DNA of 64,000 nt from Halanaerobium saccharolyticum subsp. saccharolyticum DSM 6643. Lineage in GTDB: Bacteria > Bacillota > Halanaerobiia > Halanaerobiales > Halanaerobiaceae. The position numbers were made by a program, and so were the translations under genes. Location of the stretch: assembly GCF_000350165.1 (NCBI RefSeq), contig NZ_CAUI01000019.1:62001-126000 (forward strand). The letters run 5' to 3'. Below, in pieces: positions 5,461 to 54,480 of the stretch. The stretch's first letter is position 1, and each line of letters starts with the position of its first letter. The notes under the pieces are model-generated. The model was not told where the DNA came from, ran no database searches, and worked only from the letters and a program-made list of their open reading frames with translations.

Positions 5461-5559
5461 GGGAGTGTTTATGTTCAAGGTGAACATCCTGGACTTCAAA
5501 TCCAGCGGCAGGCAGGCGGACCTGTCTGCGGTGGGTTCGATTCCCACACATTCCCGCCA
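5461..5559 (+). tRNA. selC: Selenocysteine tRNA (tRNA-Sec, anticodon UCA)
   Basis: A 99-base tRNA with encoded CCA (5557-5559). The acceptor stem is 8 bp (5461-5468 with 5548-5555, one G-T pair) and the T stem is 5 bp (GTGGG/CCCAC around TTCGATT), the 8+5 pattern special to bacterial tRNA-Sec. The D stem GTTCA/TGAAC has a tiny loop. The anticodon arm is CTGGA-CTTCAAA-TCCAG, giving anticodon TCA, which reads UGA. The long variable arm GGCAGGCAGGCGGACCTG is typical. selA follows directly. Confidence 0.97.
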
Positions 5560-19528: not shown

Positions 19529-19557
19529 TTGACTTTAAAATTTGCATCTGTTAAGAT
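19529..19557 (+). promoter_or_regulatory. Promoter of the purine operon
   Basis: TTGACT at 19529-19534, a 17-base spacer and TAAGAT at 19552-19557. The predicted start is about 24 bases before the guanine aptamer. Confidence 0.65.
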
Positions 19558-19587
19558 TAAATTGTAAAATTAAAAACTAAATTTGTA

Positions 19588-19655
19588 CCTCATATAATAG
19601 TGGGAATATGGCCCACAAGTCTCTACCGAGCACCGTAAATTGTTCGACTATGAGG
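19588..19655 (+). promoter_or_regulatory. Guanine-class purine riboswitch aptamer
   Basis: The 68-base element has all purine-aptamer landmarks: P1 CCTCATA/TATGAGG, the junction ATATAAT, the P2 hairpin with GGGAATATGGCCC, the J2/3 AAGTCTCTACC, and the P3 loop ACCGTAAAT. The specificity base in GACTATG (19648) is C, which pairs with guanine or hypoxanthine; adenine aptamers have T here. Loop bases for the kissing contact (GGAATATGG and CCGTAAA) are intact. It precedes purD. Confidence 0.93.
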
Positions 19656-19656
19656 G

Positions 19657-19800
19657 AAGTGTACCTAGGTTTCCGCAGTATTCAGGAGATAATTATGTTT
19701 ATTTAGATTTAATTAGATTATATCTCACTAATTGCTGGCTGGTCCGAGCGGTACAGATATTAATATATCACACCGAAGGGATAAAAGCCCAGGCGGGGAG
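19657..19800 (+). promoter_or_regulatory. ykkC-family aptamer, probable PRPP riboswitch, in tandem with the guanine aptamer
   Basis: One base after the guanine aptamer begins a ykkC-type RNA: CCTAGGTTTCCG at 19664-19675, CTGGTCCGAGCGG at 19738-19750, ACACCGAAGGGATAAAAGCC at 19770-19789. These match the conserved blocks of the ykkC family (guanidine, ppGpp and PRPP classes). Position in front of purine genes and behind a guanine aptamer fits the PRPP subtype, known to occur in such tandems. Between the blocks lies a long AT-rich arm. The 3' AGCCCAGG is also the 5' arm of the terminator, so ligand binding should favour read-through. Confidence 0.8.
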
Positions 19801-19850
19801 GTTCTACTCATTGAATGTAGAGTCTTCCTACCTGGGCTATTTTTATTTTT
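19786..19850 (+). terminator. Expression-platform terminator of the purine riboswitches
   Basis: A 22-base arm (19786-19807, starting AGCCCAGGCGGGGAGG) pairs with 19817-19838 (ending CTACCTGGGCT), followed by ATTTTTATTTTT. Its 5' arm overlaps the conserved 3' end of the ykkC-type aptamer, giving mutually exclusive structures. Confidence 0.88.
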
Positions 19851-19939
19851 GGAGAAATTTACTTATTTTTACGTTCAGGTTCCTGGTTCAAAAAAATTTA
19901 TGGGCCTGGTACCAATAAATTAAAGTGGGAGTGGATAGC

Positions 19940-21211
19940 ATGAACATTCTTCTCATCGGAAGTGGTGGAAGAGAAAATGCACTGGCCTGGAAATTAGCTC
20001 AGAGCAGCAGAGTAGAAGAATTATATATAGCAGCAGGTAATCCGGGAACTGCAGCATATGGTGAAAATCTTGAATTTGATGAAAGTAATCAGGAAGCACT
20101 ATTAGAATTTGCTTTAAAAGAAAAAATTGATATCACATTAGTGGGGCCGGAGGCACCACTGGCAGCAGGAATTGTTGATCTTTTTGAAGAGCATGGACTG
20201 AAGGTTTTTGGCCCAAATCAGAGTGCTGCCCGGCTCGAGAGTTCAAAAGCTTTTTCCAAAGAGTTAATGCAAAAATATAAAATTTCAACTGCAGCCTATC
20301 AGAGCTTTACAGACGCCAAAAACGCAGCAGAGTATATCAGAAGTAAGGGAGCGCCGATTGTTGTTAAGGCTTCAGGTCTGGCAGCAGGTAAAGGAGTTAT
20401 TGTGGCTCAGACAGAGGCGGAAGCATTAGCAGCAGTTGAAACAATCATGAAAGATGAAAAATTTGGTGATGCAGGAGAAAAAGTTGTTATCGAAGAATTT
20501 TTAGAAGGAGAAGAAGCTACAATTCTTGCCTTCTGTGATGGAAAAACAATAGTACCGATGATAGCTTCGCAGGACCACAAAGCTGCCTATGATGGTGGTA
20601 AGGGTCCAAATACAGGCGGAATGGGCGCTTATGCACCAGCCCCGGTTGTAACTGAGCAGATCGAAGAAGATTTTAAAACTGAAATCATGGAACCAACACT
20701 TAAGGCACTGCAGAGTGAAGGCCTTGATTTTAAAGGGATTATTTATTTTGGGCTGATGATTAAAGATCAAAAAGCAAAGGTTTTAGAATATAATGTTCGT
20801 TTTGGTGACCCGGAAGCACAGGTTGTACTCCCGCTTTTAGAAACAGATCTGATAGATATTATGGAAGCTGTGGTTGATGAAAAATTAGATCAGCTTAAAA
20901 TTAAGTGGAAAAATCAGAAAGCTCTTTGCGTGGTAATGGCGTCTGGAGGTTATCCAGTAGAATATGAAAAAGGAAAAGAAATTACTGGAATCAAGGAAGC
21001 AGAAGCAGCTGAAGAAATAATTGTTTTTCAGGCAGGAACCAGGCTAGAAGGAGATAAATTGCTGACTGATGGAGGTAGGGTACTTGCTGTAACTGCTTTA
21101 GGAAACAGTTTTAGCGAAGTAATTGAGAAGGCTTACAGTGGTGTAGAAAAAATAAATTTTGAAGATTTTCAGATTCGAAATGATATTGGTCAGAAAGCAC
21201 TTAAAAAATAA
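19940..21211 (+). CDS. purD: Phosphoribosylamine-glycine ligase (GARS)
   Basis: Step 2 of purine synthesis: phosphoribosylamine plus glycine and ATP to GAR. The 423-residue ATP-grasp enzyme begins MNILLIGSGGRENALAWKL and contains GPEAPLAAGIVD, PIVVKASGLAAGKGVIVA, DHKAAYDGGKGPNTGGMGAYAP and YNVRFGDPEAQVVLPLL. I use ATG 19940, with GGGAGTGG before it; a GTG at 19925 would add five residues. purD leads the operon here, unlike Bacillus subtilis where it is last, and stands directly behind the tandem riboswitch. Confidence 0.97.
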   Translation: MNILLIGSGGRENALAWKLAQSSRVEELYIAAGNPGTAAYGENLEFDESNQEALLEFALKEKIDITLVGPEAPLAAGIVDLFEEHGLKVFGPNQSAARLESSKAFSKELMQKYKISTAAYQSFTDAKNAAEYIRSKGAPIVVKASGLAAGKGVIVAQTEAEALAAVETIMKDEKFGDAGEKVVIEEFLEGEEATILAFCDGKTIVPMIASQDHKAAYDGGKGPNTGGMGAYAPAPVVTEQIEEDFKTEIMEPTLKALQSEGLDFKGIIYFGLMIKDQKAKVLEYNVRFGDPEAQVVLPLLETDLIDIMEAVVDEKLDQLKIKWKNQKALCVVMASGGYPVEYEKGKEITGIKEAEAAEEIIVFQAGTRLEGDKLLTDGGRVLAVTALGNSFSEVIEKAYSGVEKINFEDFQIRNDIGQKALKK

Positions 21212-21232
21212 ATTTAACCGGGAGGTTATAAT

Positions 21233-22396
21233 TTGAAATTTAAAGATAAGACCAAACAGAAAATTGGTATTATTGGTGGAGGTCAGCTGGGGAAAATGAT
21301 GATTTTAGAGGCCAAGAAAATGGGTTTTTATGTTAGCATTTTAGACCCTACAAAAAAATGCCCGGCCCACAGTATAGCAGATCAGCACCTTGTGGCTGAT
21401 TTTGATGACAAAAATGCAATAAAAAAACTGGCCCAAAAATCTGATTTAATAACCTATGAATTTGAACATATAGATGTTGAAGTTTTAAAAGAGTTAGAGG
21501 CTGAGGATTATAAGATATATCCAACCGGCCGCAGTCTGGAGATTATTCAAAATAAATATCATCAAAAAAATGTTTTAAAACAGGATCAGATAGCTGTTCC
21601 GGATTTCAAAAAAGTTTCTAATCCTAATGATATTAAAGAGGCGGCTGATGATTTTGGATATCCTCTGATGTTAAAGAGCTGTACAGGTGGTTATGATGGT
21701 AAGGGAAATGCCTTAATTGACAATAAATCGGAAGTAGAGAGTGCTTTTCAGGAACTGGGATCAGGAAAAACTCCGCTGATGGTAGAAAGATATATTCCTT
21801 TTAAAAAAGAAATATCAATTATTGCAGCTCGGGGCCTCAATGGCAAGATGAAGGTTTATCCAGTTGGAGAAAATGAGCACCAAAACAATATATTATATGA
21901 GACAAAAGTGCCAGCTGAAATTTCAGAGGAGCTGAAAAAAGAAGCTGAAGAGCTTGCCAGAGAAGTACTCAAAGTTTTTGAGGGGATAGGAATTTTTTGT
22001 GTGGAAATGTTTGTGACAGAAGAGGATGAACTGCTGGTTAACGAAATCGCACCTCGTCCTCATAATTCAGGCCACTATACAATTGAAGGCTGTGTAACTT
22101 CTCAGTATGAACAGCATGTTAGAGCGATAACTGGTCTTCCGCTTGGAGATAGCAGTTTAGTTAGGCCTTCGGTAATGCGCAATATCTTAGGTAGTGGAAA
22201 AGAAGGTAAAGCTCAGATAATAGGATTGGAGCCGGCACTTGCGATTGAAGGAGTCAAGGTTCATATTTATCAGAAGACTATTGCCAGACCTGGTCGTAAA
22301 ATGGGCCACCTGACAGTGACAGCCGATAGTCTGAAACTGGCTGTAGAAAGAGCTCTGGAGGCCAGTCAATTAATTGAGATAAAAGGAGAAGTTTAA
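21233..22396 (+). CDS. purK: N5-carboxyaminoimidazole ribonucleotide synthase
   Basis: PurK uses ATP and bicarbonate to carboxylate AIR to N5-CAIR. The 387-residue ATP-grasp protein shows IGIIGGGQLGKMMILEAKKMG, AHSIADQHLVADF, YPLMLKSCTGGYDGKGN, VERYIPFKKEISIIAARG and EIAPRPHNSGHYTIEGC. TTG 21233 is the start, with GGGAGG 12 bases upstream. It sits 21 bases behind purD and 102 bases before purE, which finishes the two-step carboxylation. Confidence 0.95.
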   Translation: MKFKDKTKQKIGIIGGGQLGKMMILEAKKMGFYVSILDPTKKCPAHSIADQHLVADFDDKNAIKKLAQKSDLITYEFEHIDVEVLKELEAEDYKIYPTGRSLEIIQNKYHQKNVLKQDQIAVPDFKKVSNPNDIKEAADDFGYPLMLKSCTGGYDGKGNALIDNKSEVESAFQELGSGKTPLMVERYIPFKKEISIIAARGLNGKMKVYPVGENEHQNNILYETKVPAEISEELKKEAEELAREVLKVFEGIGIFCVEMFVTEEDELLVNEIAPRPHNSGHYTIEGCVTSQYEQHVRAITGLPLGDSSLVRPSVMRNILGSGKEGKAQIIGLEPALAIEGVKVHIYQKTIARPGRKMGHLTVTADSLKLAVERALEASQLIEIKGEV

Positions 22397-22498
22397 TTTT
22401 CTTTTAACGCTAATTTGATTAAATAAACTTAGATATAAGAAAAAATATATTTCAAAAAAATTTAAGTTAAGCAAGTAAAGTTAGGGAGGTAAAATTTT

Positions 22499-23029
22499 AT
22501 GAAGCCTAAAGTAGGAGTTATTATGGGCAGTGATTCTGATCTGCCGGTAATGAAAGAGGCAGCAGAAATTTTAGATAAGTTTGAAGTGGAATATGAGCTG
22601 ACAGTTGTTTCAGCCCACCGTACACCTGATAGATTATATAATTATGCAGAGACTGCAGAAGAAAAAGGTTTAGATGTGATAATAGCAGGCGCCGGAGGTG
22701 CAGCGCATCTACCAGGAATGGTAGCAGCAGTAACAACTGTACCTGTAGTTGGAGTACCTGTTAAAACTTCAAAATTAAGTGGACTTGATTCACTTTATTC
22801 TATAGTTCAGATGCCGCCTGGAGTTCCAGTGGCCACAGTTGCGATTAATGGAGCCAAAAATGCAGCCCTGTTGGCAGTACAAATTTTAGCACGCAGTGAC
22901 GAAGAGTTAAATCAAAAACAGAAAGAATATCGCAGAGAAATGAAAGAAAAAGTACTAGATACAGCAGAAAAATTGGAAGAACAAGGATATCAGGAATACT
23001 TTGAGAGGAGCGAAAAATTTGCAGACTAG
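22499..23029 (+). CDS. purE: N5-carboxyaminoimidazole ribonucleotide mutase, class I
   Basis: PurE moves the carboxyl group from N5 to C4 of the imidazole, giving CAIR. The 176-residue protein starts [14 protein letters not shown] and has the class I signatures SAHRTPDRL and [14 protein letters not shown] with [24 protein letters not shown]. The presence of purK shows it is the N5-CAIR mutase type. GGGAGG precedes the ATG. Its last 11 bases overlap the purB start. Confidence 0.97.
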
Positions 23030-24431
23030 AGATATTTTTGCTAATATAAGCCCCCTTGATCACCGTTATTCAAGGCGGAAAAAGAGTTTTGAGGAGATTG
23101 GGAAATACCTTTCAGAGAATGCGACTATTAAGTTTCAGGCAGAGGTTGAGCTGGCCTTAGTTAAGGTGCTGGCCAGCAGAGGAATGGCACCGGAGAAGGC
23201 GCCAGCTGAAGTTGAAAAAGCGATTGATAAATTAACTACTGAAGAGGTTTATGATGAGGAAGCAAAAACCAAACATAATATTAGAGCCTTAGTTAATTGT
23301 ATTCAAAAAAAGGTAAGTAAAGAAACCCGCCCCTATATTCACTTTACAGCCACTTCATATGATATTGTAGATACAGCAAATTCACTTCGCTATCAGAAGG
23401 CAGCTTCAGAATTAATCATACCGAAATTAAAAAAACTACATAAAAGCTGGGCAGAGATTGCCTTAAGAGAAAAAGATAGAGTTCAGATTGGAAGAACTCA
23501 CGGCCAGCATGCAGTACCAGTGACTTTTGGTTTTACTATTGCTGAATATGTTGCCCGCCTGGGAGAAAGAATAGAAGAAATCGAAGCAAAGGCAGCCAAA
23601 CTTATTGGTAAATTTGCTGGAGCAGTTGGTGCCTATAATGCCAGCGGTATCTTTTTTGAAGACCCGGAAGAGTTTGAAAAAGAAGTTTTAGCTGAGCTTG
23701 GTTTAAAGCCGGGTGAGCATTCAACTCAGATTGTGCAGGCTGAGCCGATGACAGATTTTATCCACTCTTTAGTTTCAACTTTTAGTGTGCTGGCAGCCTT
23801 TGCTGATGATATGCGTCAGCTGCAGCGATCGGAAATTGCAGAAATTGGTGAGCATTTTGGCAAAGATCAGGTTGGATCTTCAACCATGCCCCACAAGCGG
23901 AATCCGATTAATTATGAAAATGTAAAGAGCTTATGGAAGGCTTTTATGCCCCAGATGACCACAATTTATATGGATCAGTTATCAGAACATCAGAGAGATC
24001 TTACAAATTCAGCTTCTTCTCGCTTTATTCCTGAACTGATAACAGCTTTGCTTTCAGCAGCAGCCCGTTTAACCAGAGTCAGCTCTAAGATGGCAGTTGA
24101 TCAGGAAAATATTAAGAAAAATTTTGAACAGAATAAAAAGATGATTGTAGCTGAGCCTTTATATATTCTTTTAGCAGCATCAGGTCATCCAGATGCACAT
24201 GAGGCAGTAAGAAAGCTAACCTTAAGAGCTCAGGAGACAGATCTTTCCTTAAGAGAGCTGGTTGACCAAAGTCAGGAACTGCAGGGTTATTGGGAAAGTT
24301 TTGCTGAGCGACAGAAAGAATTAATTTTAAAACCAGAAAAGTATACAGGAATAGCAGCTCAGAAAACTGAAAAGATAGTTAAAAACTGGCAGCATAAATT
24401 TGAATATGAGTTAAAAACGGAGGTTTTATAA
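23019..24431 (+). CDS. purB: Adenylosuccinate lyase
   Basis: PurB cleaves fumarate from SAICAR and from adenylosuccinate. I start at TTG 23019, which follows GAGAGGAG at 23003-23010 and overlaps the end of purE; a TTG at 23001 in the same frame lies inside that ribosome site. The 470-residue protein begins [14 protein letters not shown] and carries [14 protein letters not shown] and the superfamily loop [17 protein letters not shown]. The sequence resembles the longer bacterial/eukaryote-like PurB rather than the 430-residue B. subtilis type. Confidence 0.93.
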
Positions 24432-24434
24432 AAG

Positions 24435-25154
24435 ATGGAAAAAAATGAAATGCTCTATGAAGGTAAGGCCAAACAAATTTTTAGTACAAATAAAGAGGAC
24501 CAGGTAATTGTTCATTTTAAAGATGATGCTACTGCCTTTGATGGTCAGAAAAAAGGTCAGATTGCAGAAAAAGGTATGATCAATAATAAGATTAGCAATT
24601 TCTTTTTTAAACTTTTAGAAGCAAAGGGGATTAAAACTCACTTAATTGAGGAACTGAACGAGCGTGATTCTCTAGTTAAAAAAGTAGAAATTATTCCTTT
24701 AGAAGTTGTAATGCGAAATGTTGCGGCAGGAAGCTTGGCCAAAAGAATCGGCATGGAAGAGGGAGAACCACTAAAGCAGCCGGTAATCGAATTTTACTAT
24801 AAGGATGATGATTTAGGAGATCCTTTAATTAATGTTTCCCATATTGAACTTTTAGGATTAGCAGGAAGGGAAGAATTAGAAAGATTAATTGCACTTGGTC
24901 ATAAGATAAATGATATTTTAGTTAAATTTTTAAAAGAGCGGAATGTAGATTTAGTTGATTTTAAACTTGAATTTGGAAAGACATCAGCGGGAGAAATTAT
25001 TCTTGCCGATGAAATTACTCCTGATACCTGTCGTTTCTGGGATAGTGAGACAAAAGAAAAATTGGATAAAGATCGCTTTCGTCGAGATCTTGGTAATGTA
25101 GAAGAAGCTTATCATGAAATGTATAAGCGGATTACCGGCCAGGACTGGAAATAA
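24435..25154 (+). CDS. purC: SAICAR synthetase
   Basis: PurC joins CAIR with aspartate. The 239-residue enzyme has the usual start [12 protein letters not shown], the ATP-site segment [40 protein letters not shown] and [14 protein letters not shown]. It begins three bases after purB. It is followed by a 209-base gap before purF, the largest gap inside the operon, at the point where purS-purQ-purL stand in B. subtilis. Confidence 0.97.
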
Positions 25155-25366
25155 GCTAATCAGCTAATAATAAATAAGGATTCTATTTTATTAAAACAGA
25201 TCTCATTTAATAATATTTCTACCTGATTAGCTTATTCCAGCCTGAATAGAAGCTTATTTCCAGTCTGGCGGTAGTTGGATTAGGGATGACAGTAATTTTT
25301 AGCGGAGGTTAGATTAGGAAAAAATTTAATTTTAAATTATGGTTTATCATTAAGGGAGGAAAATTG
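25144..25366 (+). other. purC-purF gap with mutually exclusive inverted repeats
   Basis: This non-coding stretch could fold in two ways. Bases 25150-25163 (ending AAGCTAATCAG) pair perfectly with 25223-25236, while 25144-25157 (ACTGGAAATAAGCT) pair perfectly with 25251-25264. The two 14-bp stems share 25150-25157. No T-run follows, so it is not an ordinary terminator; it may be an RNA switch, an mRNA-processing site or the scar of lost genes. No ORF is seen. Confidence 0.4.
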
Positions 25367-26842
25367 ATGAGAGAAAGTTGTAATTTCTCTAAGCAAAAAA
25401 ATAAAGTTAAGCAGATTTCAGCTGATTTAAAGTTAACTCAGTCTGAGCTGAATGAAGATAAAATGAGTGAAGAATGTGGAGTTTTTGGTATTTTTAATGC
25501 TGATGGTGATAGCAGTGCAGCAGAATTAACATATCTTGGGTTAATTGCCCTGCAGCATAGAGGCCAGGAAAGTGCAGGCATTTGTGCCAATCATCAAGGG
25601 GATTTTAATCTCCATAAGAGTATGGGCCTGGTAGAAAGTGCCTTTGAAAAAGAAGATATTAGGAATTTAAAAGGTGAGATGGCTATTGGTCATGTCCGTT
25701 ATTCAACTAGCGGTTCCAGTAAGCTGGCCAATGCTCAGCCAATTTTAATTAACAGTATGAAAGGTGATTTAGCCTTAGCTCATAATGGTAATCTGGCTAA
25801 TGGAGCAGAACTCAGAAACAATTTAGAGAGTAATGGTTCAATTTTTCATTCTACTTTAGATACCGAAGTAATTGCTCATCTGGTGGCCCGCTCTTTTGAA
25901 GATGATATTGTTGAAGCTTTAATTCAGAGCCTGCATCAGCTTAAAGGTGGTTTTTCACTGGTGGCAATGACCAAAGATCAGTTGGTTGCAATTCGTGATC
26001 CGCGTGGATTTCGACCACTTTCAATTGGAAAACTGGACAATAGCTATATCGTTGCTTCAGAAAGCTGTGCCTTTGATATCATTGGGGCTGAATTTGTGCG
26101 TGATGTGGCCCCGGGTGAGGTTGTAGTAATTGATGAAGATGGAATAAAAAGCAGACGCTATACCGGTGAAAATGGAACCAGCCTCTGTGTGTTTGAATAT
26201 ATCTACTTTGCCCGTCCTGACAGCAACATAGCAGGTCAAAACGTTTTACTAGCCCGTAAAGAAATGGGTAAACAGCTGGCCCGAGAGATGGATATTGAGG
26301 CAGATATTGTAGTGCCGGTACCGGATTCAGGAATTGCAGCAGCTTTAGGATTTGCTGAAGAATCGGGAATTCCCTATGCTCAGGGAATTTTAAGGAACCG
26401 TTACATGGGTCGTACCTTTATTCAGCCGACTCAGGAGATTAGGGATTTAAAAGTTAGGCTTAAATTATCTCCAATTAAAGAAATTATAAAGGATAAAAAA
26501 GTTATTTTAATAGATGATTCAATTGTTAGAGGAACAACAAGCAAACAAATTATTGGTAGAATCAAAGAAGCCGGAGCCAAAGAAGTTCATATGGCGATTT
26601 CCTCACCACCTGTTGAACATCCATGTTATTTTGGACTTGATACTTCACGGAGACAGGAACTAATTGCCAGCCGTAGTACAGTAGAAGAAATTAGTGAGAG
26701 CATTGGCGCAGATAGTCTTCATTATCTATCTCAGGCAGGGATGCTTAAATCAATTAAAACTGATGTTGAATTGGGCTTTTGTACTGCCTGTTTTGATGGA
26801 GATTATCCGATAGACAGCCGTTATTTAAGTGAGGAGGATTAA
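25367..26842 (+). CDS. purF: Amidophosphoribosyltransferase, Fe-S type
   Basis: PurF makes phosphoribosylamine from PRPP and glutamine, the first committed purine step. ATG 25367 follows AAGGGAGGA. The catalytic cysteine CGVFGIF is residue 37, so 36 residues must be removed to expose it, a longer propeptide than the 11 residues of B. subtilis; an internal ATG at 25463 would give four residues before it but has no clear ribosome site. The glutaminase domain has LQHRGQESAGI and HVRYSTSG, the PRPP loop is VILIDDSIVRGTTS, and the C-terminal GFCTACFDGDYP gives cysteines of the 4Fe-4S site. Confidence 0.95.
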   Translation: MRESCNFSKQKNKVKQISADLKLTQSELNEDKMSEECGVFGIFNADGDSSAAELTYLGLIALQHRGQESAGICANHQGDFNLHKSMGLVESAFEKEDIRNLKGEMAIGHVRYSTSGSSKLANAQPILINSMKGDLALAHNGNLANGAELRNNLESNGSIFHSTLDTEVIAHLVARSFEDDIVEALIQSLHQLKGGFSLVAMTKDQLVAIRDPRGFRPLSIGKLDNSYIVASESCAFDIIGAEFVRDVAPGEVVVIDEDGIKSRRYTGENGTSLCVFEYIYFARPDSNIAGQNVLLARKEMGKQLAREMDIEADIVVPVPDSGIAAALGFAEESGIPYAQGILRNRYMGRTFIQPTQEIRDLKVRLKLSPIKEIIKDKKVILIDDSIVRGTTSKQIIGRIKEAGAKEVHMAISSPPVEHPCYFGLDTSRRQELIASRSTVEEISESIGADSLHYLSQAGMLKSIKTDVELGFCTACFDGDYPIDSRYLSEED

Positions 26843-26844
26843 TA

Positions 26845-27879
26845 GTGGGTTTAGATTACAAAAAGGCTGGTGTTGATATCGATGCTGGCAATCAAGCAGT
26901 TGAATTAATAAAAAAAGATGTACAGTCGACCTTTGGGCCGGAAGTAATGACTGGACTGGGAGGCTTTGGTGGACTTTTTAAACCTGATTTAAGCAAATAC
27001 AAAAATCCTGTTTTAGTATCAGGAACAGATGGAGTTGGCACAAAACTTAAACTGGCCTTTAAACTTGATCTTCACAATACAATTGGGATAGATTTAGTAG
27101 CAATGTCAGTTAATGATATTTTAGCACAGGGGGCAGAACCCTTATTTTTTCTAGACTATCTGGCAACAGGCAAACTGGAGCCGGAAAAGACTGCTGAGAT
27201 TGTAAAAGGTATTGCAGCTGGCTGTAAGGAAGCCGGAGCGGCCTTAATCGGTGGAGAAACTGCCGAGATGGCAGGTTTTTATCAGCCGGGAGAATATGAT
27301 CTGGCAGGTTTTGCAGTTGGGATTGTAGACCAAGATCAGATTATCACAGGTGAAAATATTAAAGCAGGTGATTTAGTGATTGGTCTTAAATCAGAGGGTC
27401 TGCACAGCAATGGTTTTACTCTAGCCCGAGCAGCACTTTTTGATAAAGCCGGTTTTGACTATACTGCAGAAATCGAGGATCTGGAAAAGAATCTGGGAGA
27501 AGAATTACTCAGACCAACTAAAATTTATGTTAAAACTGTAATGGCTCTGCTGGAGAAATTCAAGCTAAAAGGAATTGCTCATATCACAGGTGGAGGCTTA
27601 ATCGAAAATCTGCCCAGAATTCTGCCGGATGGCTTAAAAGCTGAAATAAAAAAAGACAGCTGGCAGCCGCAAAATATTTTTGAGCTGATTCAGGAAGCTG
27701 GAGAAATTGCAAAAGAGGAAATGTACAGAACCTTTAATATGGGGATTGGAATGTGTTTAGTTATAAATAAAGATGATAAAACTCAAATACTTAAAGAACT
27801 TGAGTTAATGGGGGAAAAAGCCTGTCTGATTGGCAAAATAAAAGCAGGAGCTGGGGACACATCTCTCGAAATAAAATAA
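26845..27879 (+). CDS. purM: Phosphoribosylformylglycinamidine cyclo-ligase (AIR synthetase)
   Basis: PurM closes the imidazole ring, FGAM to AIR. The 344-residue protein has DYKKAGVDIDAGNQAVELIK, VSGTDGVGTKLKLAF, DLVAMSVNDILAQGAEPLFFLDY, GGETAEMAGFY and GLHSNGFTLAR. GTG 26845 is the start, with GAGGAGG 9 to 15 bases upstream and only two bases after the purF stop. Its substrate FGAM must come from a synthase encoded elsewhere. Confidence 0.96.
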   Translation: MGLDYKKAGVDIDAGNQAVELIKKDVQSTFGPEVMTGLGGFGGLFKPDLSKYKNPVLVSGTDGVGTKLKLAFKLDLHNTIGIDLVAMSVNDILAQGAEPLFFLDYLATGKLEPEKTAEIVKGIAAGCKEAGAALIGGETAEMAGFYQPGEYDLAGFAVGIVDQDQIITGENIKAGDLVIGLKSEGLHSNGFTLARAALFDKAGFDYTAEIEDLEKNLGEELLRPTKIYVKTVMALLEKFKLKGIAHITGGGLIENLPRILPDGLKAEIKKDSWQPQNIFELIQEAGEIAKEEMYRTFNMGIGMCLVINKDDKTQILKELELMGEKACLIGKIKAGAGDTSLEIK

Positions 27880-27892
27880 AGAAGGTGTAAAA

Positions 27893-28507
27893 ATGCTAAA
27901 AATAGCTGTTTTCGCCTCAGGTCGAGGCTCGAATTTTCAATCAATTATTGATCACATAAAAAGTGGTGAGATATCAGCAGAAGTTAAACTTTTAATTAGT
28001 GATCGTCAGCAAGCTGGCGCTTTAAAGCGAGCAGAGCATGAAAATGTAGAGCATGTATTTATTGATCCTGCTCATTTTGAAACAAAAGCAGATTATGAAA
28101 AAGAATTAATTGGACTTTTAAAAAATGCTGGAGTGGAACTTATTGTTCTGGCCGGTTATATGCGGATTTTATCCCCAGTTTTTGTGAAAGAGTTTAAAAA
28201 TCAGATTATCAATATTCATCCTTCACTCTTACCTGCCTTTAAGGGGCTTGATGCTCAAAAACAGGCTGTTGATTATGGGGTTAAATTCAGCGGCTGTACT
28301 GTTCATTTTGTAGATCAGGGTATGGATACTGGCCCAATTATCAAACAGGCAGTGGTGGAAGTTAAAGCTGATGACAGCCCAGATGACCTGGCAGCAAGAA
28401 TTTTAAAACAAGAACATAAAATTTATCCTGAGGCAGTGAAATTGATTGCAGAAGATAAAATTGAAATTGAAGGACGGAAAGTTAAAATTCTAAAGGAGGA
28501 AAAATAA
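27893..28507 (+). CDS. purN: Phosphoribosylglycinamide formyltransferase
   Basis: PurN formylates GAR with 10-formyl-THF. The 204-residue protein opens KIAVFASGRGSNFQSII and has the catalytic pattern VLAGYMRILSPVFV, INIHPSLLPAFKGLDAQKQA and GCTVHFVDQGMDTGPII with the conserved Asn-His-Asp. It starts 13 bases after purM with AAGGTG upstream and ends in AAAGGAGGAAAAATAA, whose ribosome site serves purH. Confidence 0.96.
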   Translation: MLKIAVFASGRGSNFQSIIDHIKSGEISAEVKLLISDRQQAGALKRAEHENVEHVFIDPAHFETKADYEKELIGLLKNAGVELIVLAGYMRILSPVFVKEFKNQIINIHPSLLPAFKGLDAQKQAVDYGVKFSGCTVHFVDQGMDTGPIIKQAVVEVKADDSPDDLAARILKQEHKIYPEAVKLIAEDKIEIEGRKVKILKEEK

Positions 28508-28509
28508 CT

Positions 28510-30084
28510 TTGTCTAAAATTAAAAGAGCATTAATCAGTGTTTCAAACAAGGAAGGTATTGTGGAGTTTGCAAAAGCTTTAAAAGAATTTGGAGTAGAAA
28601 TAATTTCAACTGGTGGTACAGGCCGGATATTAAAAGATAATGACATTGACGTTATTGACATTGATCAGGTAACCAATTTTCCGGAAATGATGGATGGACG
28701 AGTAAAGACTCTTCATCCTGCAGTTCACGGTGGCATTTTAGCAGTTAGAGATGATGAGCAGCACTTAAAAGAAATCGCAGCTCAGGATATTGAGCCAATT
28801 GACCTTGTTGTCTGTAATTTATATCCTTTTGCTGAAACAATTGCTAAAGATGATGTGACATTAGAAGAAGCAATAGAAAATATTGATATCGGTGGTCCAA
28901 CAATGATTCGCTCAGCTGCCAAAAATAGCAACGATGTTGCAGTAGTAGTTGATCCAGCTGATTATGATAATCTTTTAGCTGAAATGAAAGTGGGTGATGG
29001 CGGTTTAACTAAAACTCAAAAGTTGAAACTTGCTTATAAAGCCTTCCATCACACTGCTGAATATGATCAGAGAATCCAGAATTATCTAGGCGAAATTGTG
29101 TTGGCTGATGAAAAAAAAGAACTGCCTGAAACAATGCTTGCTCGTTATGATAAAAGAGAAGATCTCCGCTATGGAGAAAATCCTCATCAAAAAGCAGCTT
29201 TCTACTTAGAAGATGAGCAGAATGAACCATCAATTTCTACTGCTGAACAGCTGCATGGTAAGGGAATGTCTTACAATAATATTAATGATACAGATGGAGC
29301 TTTAGAGTTAGTTAAAGAATTTGAAGCTAAGCCAACAGCAGCAGTAATCAAACATGCTAATCCCTGTGGAATGGCAACAGCTGATAGTTTAAAACAGGCT
29401 TTTATTAATGCACATGCAGGTGACCCATTATCTGCCTTTGGTTCAATTGTAGCTGCTAATAGAACAATTGATGCAGCAACAGCCAGAGAAATTGCCGATC
29501 AGGATAAATTTATAGAAGTTGTAATTGCACCTGATTATGAGCCAGAAGCTTTAGAAATTTTAAAAGAGCGTTCTGATAAGATGCGTATTTTAAAAACAGG
29601 GGAACTTTCCATTAATAAAAATAAGCCGGGTTACAGTATGAAAAAGGTAACAGGTGGGCTTTTAGTTCAGGATAGAGATTTAGCTCAAACGACTGCAGAA
29701 GAATTGGAAGTAGTAACTGAAAAAGAGCCAACTAAAGAGCAGATTAAAGATTTACTATTTTCCTGGAAAGTAGTAAAACATGTTAAATCAAATGCGATTG
29801 TAATGGCTAAAGATGAGATGGTAGTTGGAGTTGGTGCAGGTCAGATGAGTAGAGTTGATTCAATGATTATTGCTGGACGTAAAGCTGAAGGACGTCAGGA
29901 AGGTGGAGTTGTAGCATCAGATGCATTTTTTCCTTTCCCGGATGCTGTAGAGAAAGCAGCTGAACTAGGGGTTAAAGCAATTATTCAGCCAGGAGGCTCA
30001 ATTCGTGATGACCAAGTTATAGCAGCCTGCAATAAACTTGGAATTGCAATGGTCTTTACCGGCAAGAGACATTTTAGACATTAA
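28510..30084 (+). CDS. purH: Bifunctional AICAR transformylase/IMP cyclohydrolase
   Basis: PurH carries out the last two steps to IMP. TTG 28510 is the start, with AAAGGAGG at the end of purN as ribosome site. The 524-residue protein shows the cyclohydrolase domain (ALISVSNKEGIVEFAKAL, STGGTGRIL, GRVKTLHPAVHGGIL, IDIGGPTMIRSAAKN) and the transformylase domain (LRYGENPHQKAAFY, AVIKHANPCGMA, SAFGSIVAANR, SRVDS, GGSIRDDQVI, TGKRHFRH). It ends the purine operon and a terminator follows about 100 bases on. Confidence 0.97.
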   Translation: MSKIKRALISVSNKEGIVEFAKALKEFGVEIISTGGTGRILKDNDIDVIDIDQVTNFPEMMDGRVKTLHPAVHGGILAVRDDEQHLKEIAAQDIEPIDLVVCNLYPFAETIAKDDVTLEEAIENIDIGGPTMIRSAAKNSNDVAVVVDPADYDNLLAEMKVGDGGLTKTQKLKLAYKAFHHTAEYDQRIQNYLGEIVLADEKKELPETMLARYDKREDLRYGENPHQKAAFYLEDEQNEPSISTAEQLHGKGMSYNNINDTDGALELVKEFEAKPTAAVIKHANPCGMATADSLKQAFINAHAGDPLSAFGSIVAANRTIDAATAREIADQDKFIEVVIAPDYEPEALEILKERSDKMRILKTGELSINKNKPGYSMKKVTGGLLVQDRDLAQTTAEELEVVTEKEPTKEQIKDLLFSWKVVKHVKSNAIVMAKDEMVVGVGAGQMSRVDSMIIAGRKAEGRQEGGVVASDAFFPFPDAVEKAAELGVKAIIQPGGSIRDDQVIAACNKLGIAMVFTGKRHFRH

Positions 30085-30249: not shown

Positions 30250-30405
30250 TTATAAAATAATTTGAGAAAAAATGTATAAAACATTTAAGGAATGACATAT
30301 TTCATAAAGGAATCTAAGTATTAACAAAGAATATTATCTAATAGGTAGTAAGTTTAAATACTTATTTATGTTAATTTAATCGTCAAAAAAATGGAGATGC
30401 TAAAG

Positions 30406-31602
30406 ATGGAAAATATAATGGTGGGTCGACAACCTATATTAGATAAAAAAGAAAATTTATTTGCTTACGAATTGTTGTTTAGATCACCCAAAAATAATGA
30501 AATTTTTGATGGCGAGAAGGCTACTGCAGAAGTTATAATGAATAGTTTAGAATCAATTGGTCTCCCTAATTTAACTCAAAACAAGCCAGCTTTTATTAAT
30601 TTTAATACAAAAATGATTAAAAACAAAATATTTGATATATTATCAAGTGATTCTATTTATATTGAAATACTAGAAACTGTTGAAGTTGATGAAGAAATTT
30701 TATCAATTTGTAAAGAATTGAAAAGTCAAGGGTTTAAAATAGTGTTAGATGATTTTGAATTCAAAGAATCACTAATAGAACTTGTTAAAATTGCTGATAT
30801 TATTAAAATTGATTTTTTGAACACGACTAAAAAAGTTAGAAAAGAAACTCTATATTTAATTAAAAGTAAATATAACAAAGATGTAAAATTTTTGGCTGAA
30901 AAAATAGAAAATTATTCACACCTAAAAGAAGCGAAAAAATTTGATTATGATTATTACCAAGGTTTTTATTTTACTAAGCCAGATATCATATCTGGTAGAA
31001 AAGTAGAACCTTTTAAACAAAGTTATGTTAATATATTAGAAGAGTTAAATAAAGAATATCCAGATTTTAGACAAATAGAAAATTATATAAAACAAGACTT
31101 ATCTATGTCTTATAGTCTTTTAAGACTTGTAAATTCAGCTGCGTATGGATATGACATTAACTCAATTAGACAGGGAATAGTGCTTTTAGGGGTGGATAAG
31201 TTAAAAAAATGGAGTCTCCTATATTCTTTTAAAAGTTTAAACAGTAAAAAACCAGATATTTTATTAATTACATCGTTAACAAGAGCTTATTTTGCTGAAT
31301 CACTTAAGCAGCATTTAGATATAGATGAAGATTTATTTATACTTGGAATGTTTTCTCTAATAAATGCATATTTAGATAGAGATTTAAAAGATGTTCTTCC
31401 TCTGATATCAATGAAATCAAAGTTTAAAGATGCTTTAATTTCCAAAGAAGGTAAATTAGGCGAGGTTATAAAAATAATTGAGATTTACGAAAAGTCGAAT
31501 TGGCAAGATTTAAATAAATATTCTTTAGATAAAAAAGCAGTTTCTAATGATTATCTCGAGGCAATAGAAAATGCTGAAGAAATTTTTGAGATTACTTATT
31601 AA
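30406..31602 (+). CDS. EAL-HDOD (YuxH/CdgJ-type) signalling protein with a degenerate EAL domain
   Basis: A 398-residue protein: an EAL-like domain (residues 1 to about 195) followed by an HDOD domain (about 200-395). It begins VGRQPILDKKENLFAYELLFR, the fixed opening of YuxH proteins. The catalytic EAL signature is AYELLF and the metal-binding positions are altered (EILETVEVDEE, VLDDFEF), so c-di-GMP hydrolysis is unlikely; binding or scaffolding is more likely. The HDOD part has SYSLLRLVNSAAYG, RQGIVLLGVDKLKKW. ATG 30406 has GGAG nine bases upstream; ATGs at 30391 and 30397 are alternatives. It stands alone between terminators. Target is unknown. Confidence 0.85.
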   Translation: MENIMVGRQPILDKKENLFAYELLFRSPKNNEIFDGEKATAEVIMNSLESIGLPNLTQNKPAFINFNTKMIKNKIFDILSSDSIYIEILETVEVDEEILSICKELKSQGFKIVLDDFEFKESLIELVKIADIIKIDFLNTTKKVRKETLYLIKSKYNKDVKFLAEKIENYSHLKEAKKFDYDYYQGFYFTKPDIISGRKVEPFKQSYVNILEELNKEYPDFRQIENYIKQDLSMSYSLLRLVNSAAYGYDINSIRQGIVLLGVDKLKKWSLLYSFKSLNSKKPDILLITSLTRAYFAESLKQHLDIDEDLFILGMFSLINAYLDRDLKDVLPLISMKSKFKDALISKEGKLGEVIKIIEIYEKSNWQDLNKYSLDKKAVSNDYLEAIENAEEIFEITY

Positions 31603-54023: not shown

Positions 54024-54245
54024 ATTAAGATTATATTCTGGATTAAAATAATCTAGAAAAAATATTCTTTGTTAATTTAAAATTTGAAAAAAACTTAAAA
54101 AACAAAAAGTGAGTATTTTAAAGAAAAATCGTCTGTAATTAAGGCTCAGCTTTAAATTAGTCTAGAGATTAAAAATGAAATATTTGTTATTTACTGACAG
54201 ATGTATTAAGATAAAAATAGTTAATTAAAAATTTAATAGTTTAAA

Positions 54246-54480
54246 TAAGGGTTTCAGTCATTATTTTGGCGTTAATAGCGAAAATGATTGGTTGGATTAA
54301 AACGGGAAAGAGGTGAAAAACCTCTGCGGTCCCGCCGCCGTAAGGTTTAAAGAGTAATCAAAATTGCCACTGGGAAACTGGGAAGGCTGTTTTTTAATTG
54401 AACCGAGCCGGAAGACCTGCCTTTATTTATAAACACCATAAACTCACGGGTCATGAGGGGGTGTTAGAGCAGAAGTTTAT
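54246..54480 (+). promoter_or_regulatory. Cobalamin (adenosylcobalamin) riboswitch
   Basis: The region contains the B12-riboswitch core: GGGAA..GAGGTG..CCTCTGCGGTCCCGCCGCCGTAA around 54303-54346, the loop GCCACTGGGAAACTGGGAAGGC at 54366-54387, and the B12 box GAGCCGGAAGACCTGCC at 54405-54421. A distal hairpin AAACACC/GGTGTT carries the kissing loop. Cobalamin should switch expression off. It controls the class III ribonucleotide reductase, as B12 riboswitches do when a B12-dependent class II enzyme is available; that gene is not in this window. The about 220 bases from znuB to the aptamer hold AT-rich sequence without a feature I recognise. Confidence 0.93.

Follow-up and report, generated by a model that had tools for sequence, protein, structure and literature searches.

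How do two aptamers that lie end to end before a purine operon act on a single terminator, and which ligands do they sense? The window, i.e., the whole 64,000-nucleotide stretch of Halanaerobium DNA that was analysed, raises this question at the leader upstream of purD. Our answer is that the element is very probably a guanine-PRPP tandem riboswitch with one termination platform, behaving as an IMPLY gate through competition between the guanine P1 and PRPP P0 helices for one strand, with the logic taken from its relatives. The aptamers, marker residues, terminator overlap and shared strand come from the present analysis, and we infer ligand binding and logic from published tests on relatives. 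The features are as follows.

19529 to 19557, plus strand: candidate sigma-70 promoter, TTGACT-17-TAAGAT with an extended -10 TG (9/12 matches)
19588 to 19655, plus strand: guanine aptamer, P1 19588-19594/19649-19655, C74 at 19648
19651 to 19655, plus strand: shared strand UGAGG, both the 3' strand of guanine P1 and the 5' strand of PRPP P0 (from sequence and comparative test)
19651 to 19657, plus strand: predicted P0 5' strand of the PRPP aptamer, pairing with 19803-19810 with A19806 bulged (duplex prediction)
19658 to 19801, plus strand: PRPP (ykkC subtype 2b) aptamer core, by RF00442 (47.9 bits) and marker residues
19676 to 19735, plus strand: AT-rich arm, a peripheral hairpin that separates the two ykkC core halves (fold -7.6 kcal/mol)
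19786 to 19838, plus strand: intrinsic terminator, AGCCCAGG (19786-19793) with CCTGGGCT (19831-19838), -32.7 kcal/mol, then ATTTTTATTTTT
19803 to 19810, plus strand: predicted P0 3' strand, within the terminator hairpin (duplex prediction)
19925 to 30084, plus strand: purD-purK-purE-purB-purC-purF-purM-purN-purH (NCBIfam)

The first aptamer is a canonical guanine riboswitch domain. In the Rfam covariance-model search of the window, RF00167 matches 19570-19670 with 82.8 bits against a gathering score of 37 (E 2.2e-13), and the aptamer folds at -21.5 kcal/mol into the expected three-way junction. The ligand-pairing residue C74 is C19648, which lies within GACTA in both the sequence and the RF00167 alignment and specifies guanine rather than adenine. 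The earlier note had described a complete guanine aptamer with C at the specificity position and had proposed a purine covariance-model search as a check; the search bears it out, above the gathering score. The P1 stem, CCUCAUA/UAUGAGG, has a stability of -7.7 kcal/mol alone. One other guanine riboswitch is present in the 2.87 Mb genome (L002 1501-1600, minus strand); it precedes a Xan_ur_permease gene and has no PRPP half. A whole-genome RF00442 search found no further ykkC RNA.

Two P1 stems are usually 5-7 nt apart in such tandems, and the mechanism was left open in the first description (Sherlock et al. 2018, PMC5912903). Knappenberger et al. (PMC6031431) reported a P0 helix formed by the two tails of the PRPP aptamer and, on the basis of the T. 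mathranii sequence, suggested that this helix and the guanine P1 exclude each other; a 2022 review still stated that the structural changes of the tandem "have yet to be established" (PMC9481103). In the window, four unpaired nucleotides (19656-19659) separate P1 from P1. Duplex prediction, with strand-swap tests across relatives, pairs the 5' and 3' tails of the ykkC half as P0 (19651-19657/19803-19810), with the predicted helix UGAGGGA/UUCU(A)CUCA carrying a bulged A and amounting to -3.9 kcal/mol alone. The aptamers, taken earlier to lie one base apart, in fact overlap, with the P0 strand 19651-19657 located inside and just past the guanine P1.

The overlap recurs among relatives. Scanning one genome per GTDB species for the pattern yielded 102 stretches and, together with a class search, 102 distinct tandems with a readable guanine P1, in 101 of which the predicted P0 shares nucleotides with P1, most often 4-6 nt. 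Real P0 strands pair better than swapped ones: -7.20 versus -6.03 kcal/mol for 54 distinct pairs, -7.28 versus -5.73 kcal/mol for 23 clade representatives, and -3.51 versus -2.91 kcal/mol for the shared nucleotides only (0 of 5000 permutations in each comparison), figures from which shared ancestry is not fully removed. Fifteen held-out strand pairs, drawn from a separate genome search, gave -7.06 versus -5.53 kcal/mol (6 of 5000 permutations). Tandems L142-L145 are the clearest cases, with one strand changed and both partners following: CGUG replaces CGAG in the shared strand, CACG replaces CUCG in the P1 5' strand, and CACACG or GCACG replaces CACUCG in the P0 3' strand. As a whole, the comparative data lend modest support to a strand exchange between the guanine P1 and the PRPP P0.

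One of the two ideas put forward by Sherlock et al. 2018 was that the aptamers interfere by steric crowding only, which would suit the very short linker; the three-way covariation of the P1 5', shared and P0 3' strands, however, predicts real pairing on both sides and makes crowding without strand exchange an improbable account. We consider it likely that the three-strand exchange operates everywhere, with the P0 3' strand as a competing copy of the P1 5' strand for the shared strand, a design maintained through covariation in both Bacillota and Chloroflexota. If so, comparing the strengths of the two helices could allow the set point of the gate to be predicted.

The second overlap is with the terminator. 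The 3' side of the PRPP aptamer, AGCCCAGGCGGGGAGGUUCUAC (19786-19807), is also the terminator 5' arm, which pairs with 19817-19838 and is followed by the U run AUUUUUAUUUUU. Because this arm takes up the 3' strands of P3 and P0 together with G96, the terminator and the ligand-bound PRPP aptamer are mutually exclusive. As proposed from the first reading, AGCCC at the ykkC 3' side begins the 5' arm of a strong terminator (19786-19838, -32.7 kcal/mol, with U run), and this terminator is common to both aptamers, with none between them and one at the PRPP side. The absence of a sense-strand terminator between the aptamers comes from both a terminator scan and folding. The simple scan gave no sense-strand terminator, probably because it allows loops of 3-8 nucleotides and the loop here has 9; folding shows the terminator. 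Matches of Rfam FinP and Ncrwmel02 in the leader fall below gathering, overlap the terminator or the arm, and were put down to chance. Promoter-type sites number three, against 1.6 in shuffles, which is not significant alone.

The downstream operon is the purine operon that the earlier note had named, with purD, K, E, B, C, F, M, N and H in this order. The best purL match lies unlinked on another contig (L135), in an open frame of 1276 codons that does not reach the PurL cut-off score; searches of that contig for purine and ykkC riboswitches gave no match. The product of the gene after purH (window 30391-31602) has EAL and HDOD domains. Elsewhere in the window are a cobalamin riboswitch (54232-54438, 105.9 bits) and, near its start, a SECIS_4 element and a selenocysteine tRNA (63-100 and 5461-5555).

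These helices suggest how the switch would work. Guanine binding during synthesis of the leader would close P1 (19588-19594/19649-19655), and the closed P1 would lock UGAGG (19651-19655) away from P0 (19651-19657/19803-19810). Without P0, the PRPP aptamer would be weak and its 3' side, from 19786 onward, free, so that the terminator would form and purD-H would be off. Once PRPP binds, P0 and P3 would hold the 3' side, the terminator would be blocked and the guanine P1 opened, and transcription would go on even with guanine present. The output would be IMPLY, in which guanine without PRPP is the sole off condition. In isolation, P0 (-3.9 kcal/mol) is predicted to be weaker than P1 (-7.7 kcal/mol), and guanine should therefore win in the absence of PRPP, which must supply the energy to open P1. 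The calculated strengths agree with an IMPLY gate, and the PRPP override could be incomplete in this RNA.

The IMPLY truth table has been shown only for the B. megaterium codA tandem, which is ON with neither ligand and in which PRPP overrides guanine (PMC5912903). By analogy with this relative, the signs of the two inputs in the earlier note, PRPP opening expression and guanine opposing it, would be right. Its further statement that the operon runs only with high PRPP and low guanine describes an AND-NOT gate and departs from the tested IMPLY behaviour. That logic corresponds to two independent switches, guanine-OFF and PRPP-ON, which would indeed give both inputs their correct sign; yet the lone terminator stands at the PRPP side with none between the aptamers, the aptamers have a strand in common, and the tested relative is IMPLY, all of which leaves independent switches very unlikely. 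The layout found here is that of the tandem, with the guanine aptamer directly upstream, no intervening terminator and one shared terminator.

The identity of the second aptamer is defined by a small set of residues. RF00442 matches 19654-19797 with 47.9 bits (E 1.2e-7 for a search of 426 bases, 2.0e-7 for the whole genome), which supports a ykkC-family RNA after the guanine aptamer, as had been claimed, though at a score below the guanidine-I gathering score of 63. Such a score is expected for a subtype 2b RNA carrying a 50-nt insert; the AT-rich arm probably lowers it. RF00442 is the only family match, with no PRPP covariance model among the Rfam matches for the ykkC half, and it is therefore the marker residues, P0 and the gene context that carry the 2b assignment. 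The core markers are pyrimidine-49 (C19749), C75 (19771) and G96 (19792). In the RF00442 alignment, C19749 stands where guanidine-I RNAs have A, and a non-A residue (pyrimidine) at 49 in a ykkC RNA marks subtype 2 (PMC6031431); C or T occupies this position in 100 of the 101 tandem relatives read. Position 96 is G in all 102 tandems collected, in a numbering taken over from the residues named in PMC6031431 and not from a deposited sequence; C75, A76, C77, C78, G96, A103, G104 and G105 all match the window at 19696 + n. On the markers, P0 and the gene context, we assign the second aptamer to PRPP, subtype 2b, in keeping with the PRPP type first proposed, for which pyrimidine-49, G96 and the P0 helix all speak.

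The consensus sequences of subtypes 2a and 2b are nearly identical (PMC6031431), which speaks for a guanine-ppGpp tandem, with a second aptamer that senses ppGpp (ykkC 2a) and an operon that responds to starvation. The two subtypes are separated by position 96: PRPP aptamers have G there in >97% of cases, ppGpp aptamers have A, C or U or lack the base, and a G96A change shifted preference from PRPP to ppGpp by ~40,000-fold (PMC6031431). G19792, the G in all 102 tandems and the purine biosynthesis context of the operon speak against ppGpp sensing, which we regard as highly improbable. A guanidine-I riboswitch beside the guanine riboswitch, for which RF00442 as the sole family match would argue, has next to no probability given 47.9 bits against 63, C in place of the conserved A at 49, conserved P0 tails without counterpart in guanidine-I, and neighbouring purine genes rather than guanidine export or degradation.

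For the PRPP aptamer, the long AT-rich arm that the earlier note had thought unusual is not a meaningful oddity, as its length varies widely even within the genus. Among Halanaerobiaceae, CTAGG and AGCCC stand between 71 and 174 nt apart, and in several Halanaerobium species a loop of just a few nucleotides takes the place of the arm. The arm does form a predicted hairpin, but across five species only 2 of its 25 pairs show changes on both sides, covariation contributes a slightly unfavourable term, and the arm is absent in congeners; an extra functional domain was thus rejected. The arm is the tip of a peripheral hairpin and is regarded as a tolerated insertion of variable length.

Published counts of the tandem are 127 (2018) and 192 (2022), and the 2018 paper gave its range as Firmicutes. 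Of 398 genomes sampled across the phylum, 43 have the junction pattern and 2 match a reversed control pattern, and every class ykkC match inspected was the same guanine-PRPP tandem. Five Ktedonobacterales or other Chloroflexi contigs (L035, L053, L077, L097 and L110) also carry tandems; those of L035 and L110 precede Xan_ur_permease genes and that of L053 an NCS1 cytosine/purine permease, extending the range to Chloroflexota, before nucleobase permeases where the gene was read. Pattern matches in Acinetobacter, Candidimonas, Roseivirga and Mariniradius, which lack the rest of the tandem, were taken as chance. We note that four Halanaerobiales tandems (L014, L015, L025 and L023) have C or U, not A, just before C74 in J3-1 (GCCTA/GTCTA), and that loop L3 of L014 and L015 also contains CCTTAAA; these four may have an altered guanine response or none, with the PRPP half intact. 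The tandem of L125 (Limnochordia) precedes a PNP_UDP_1 phosphorylase gene, a purine salvage context.

The guanine-PRPP tandem is, to our knowledge, the only natural IMPLY gate among tandem riboswitches. The window holds the Halanaerobium copy of this tandem, a kind already known since its publication in 2018 as a gate for purine genes (eLife 33908), as the earlier note had stated. Like the B. megaterium codA tandem of Sherlock et al. 2018 (eLife 33908), it has guanine-then-PRPP order, a short junction, a single terminator over the PRPP aptamer and purine-related genes, and it differs in its host, the long AT-rich arm, the bulged P0 and an operon starting with purD. With the Thermoanaerobacter mathranii PRPP aptamer (Knappenberger et al. 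2018, eLife 36381) it shares the P0 helix, C49, C75, C77 and G96, and likewise a P0 that would be exclusive with guanine P1, here predicted from sequence; the arm and P0 sequences differ. The core architecture is that of guanidine-I (RF00442), from which the window departs by the pyrimidine at 49, the P0 tails and a score below gathering. The logic first proposed is corrected here, and what appears new is the comparative support for mutual exclusion of the aptamers; these data also give an exchange that a single crystal structure had suggested in 2018 the form of specific base pairs open to test.
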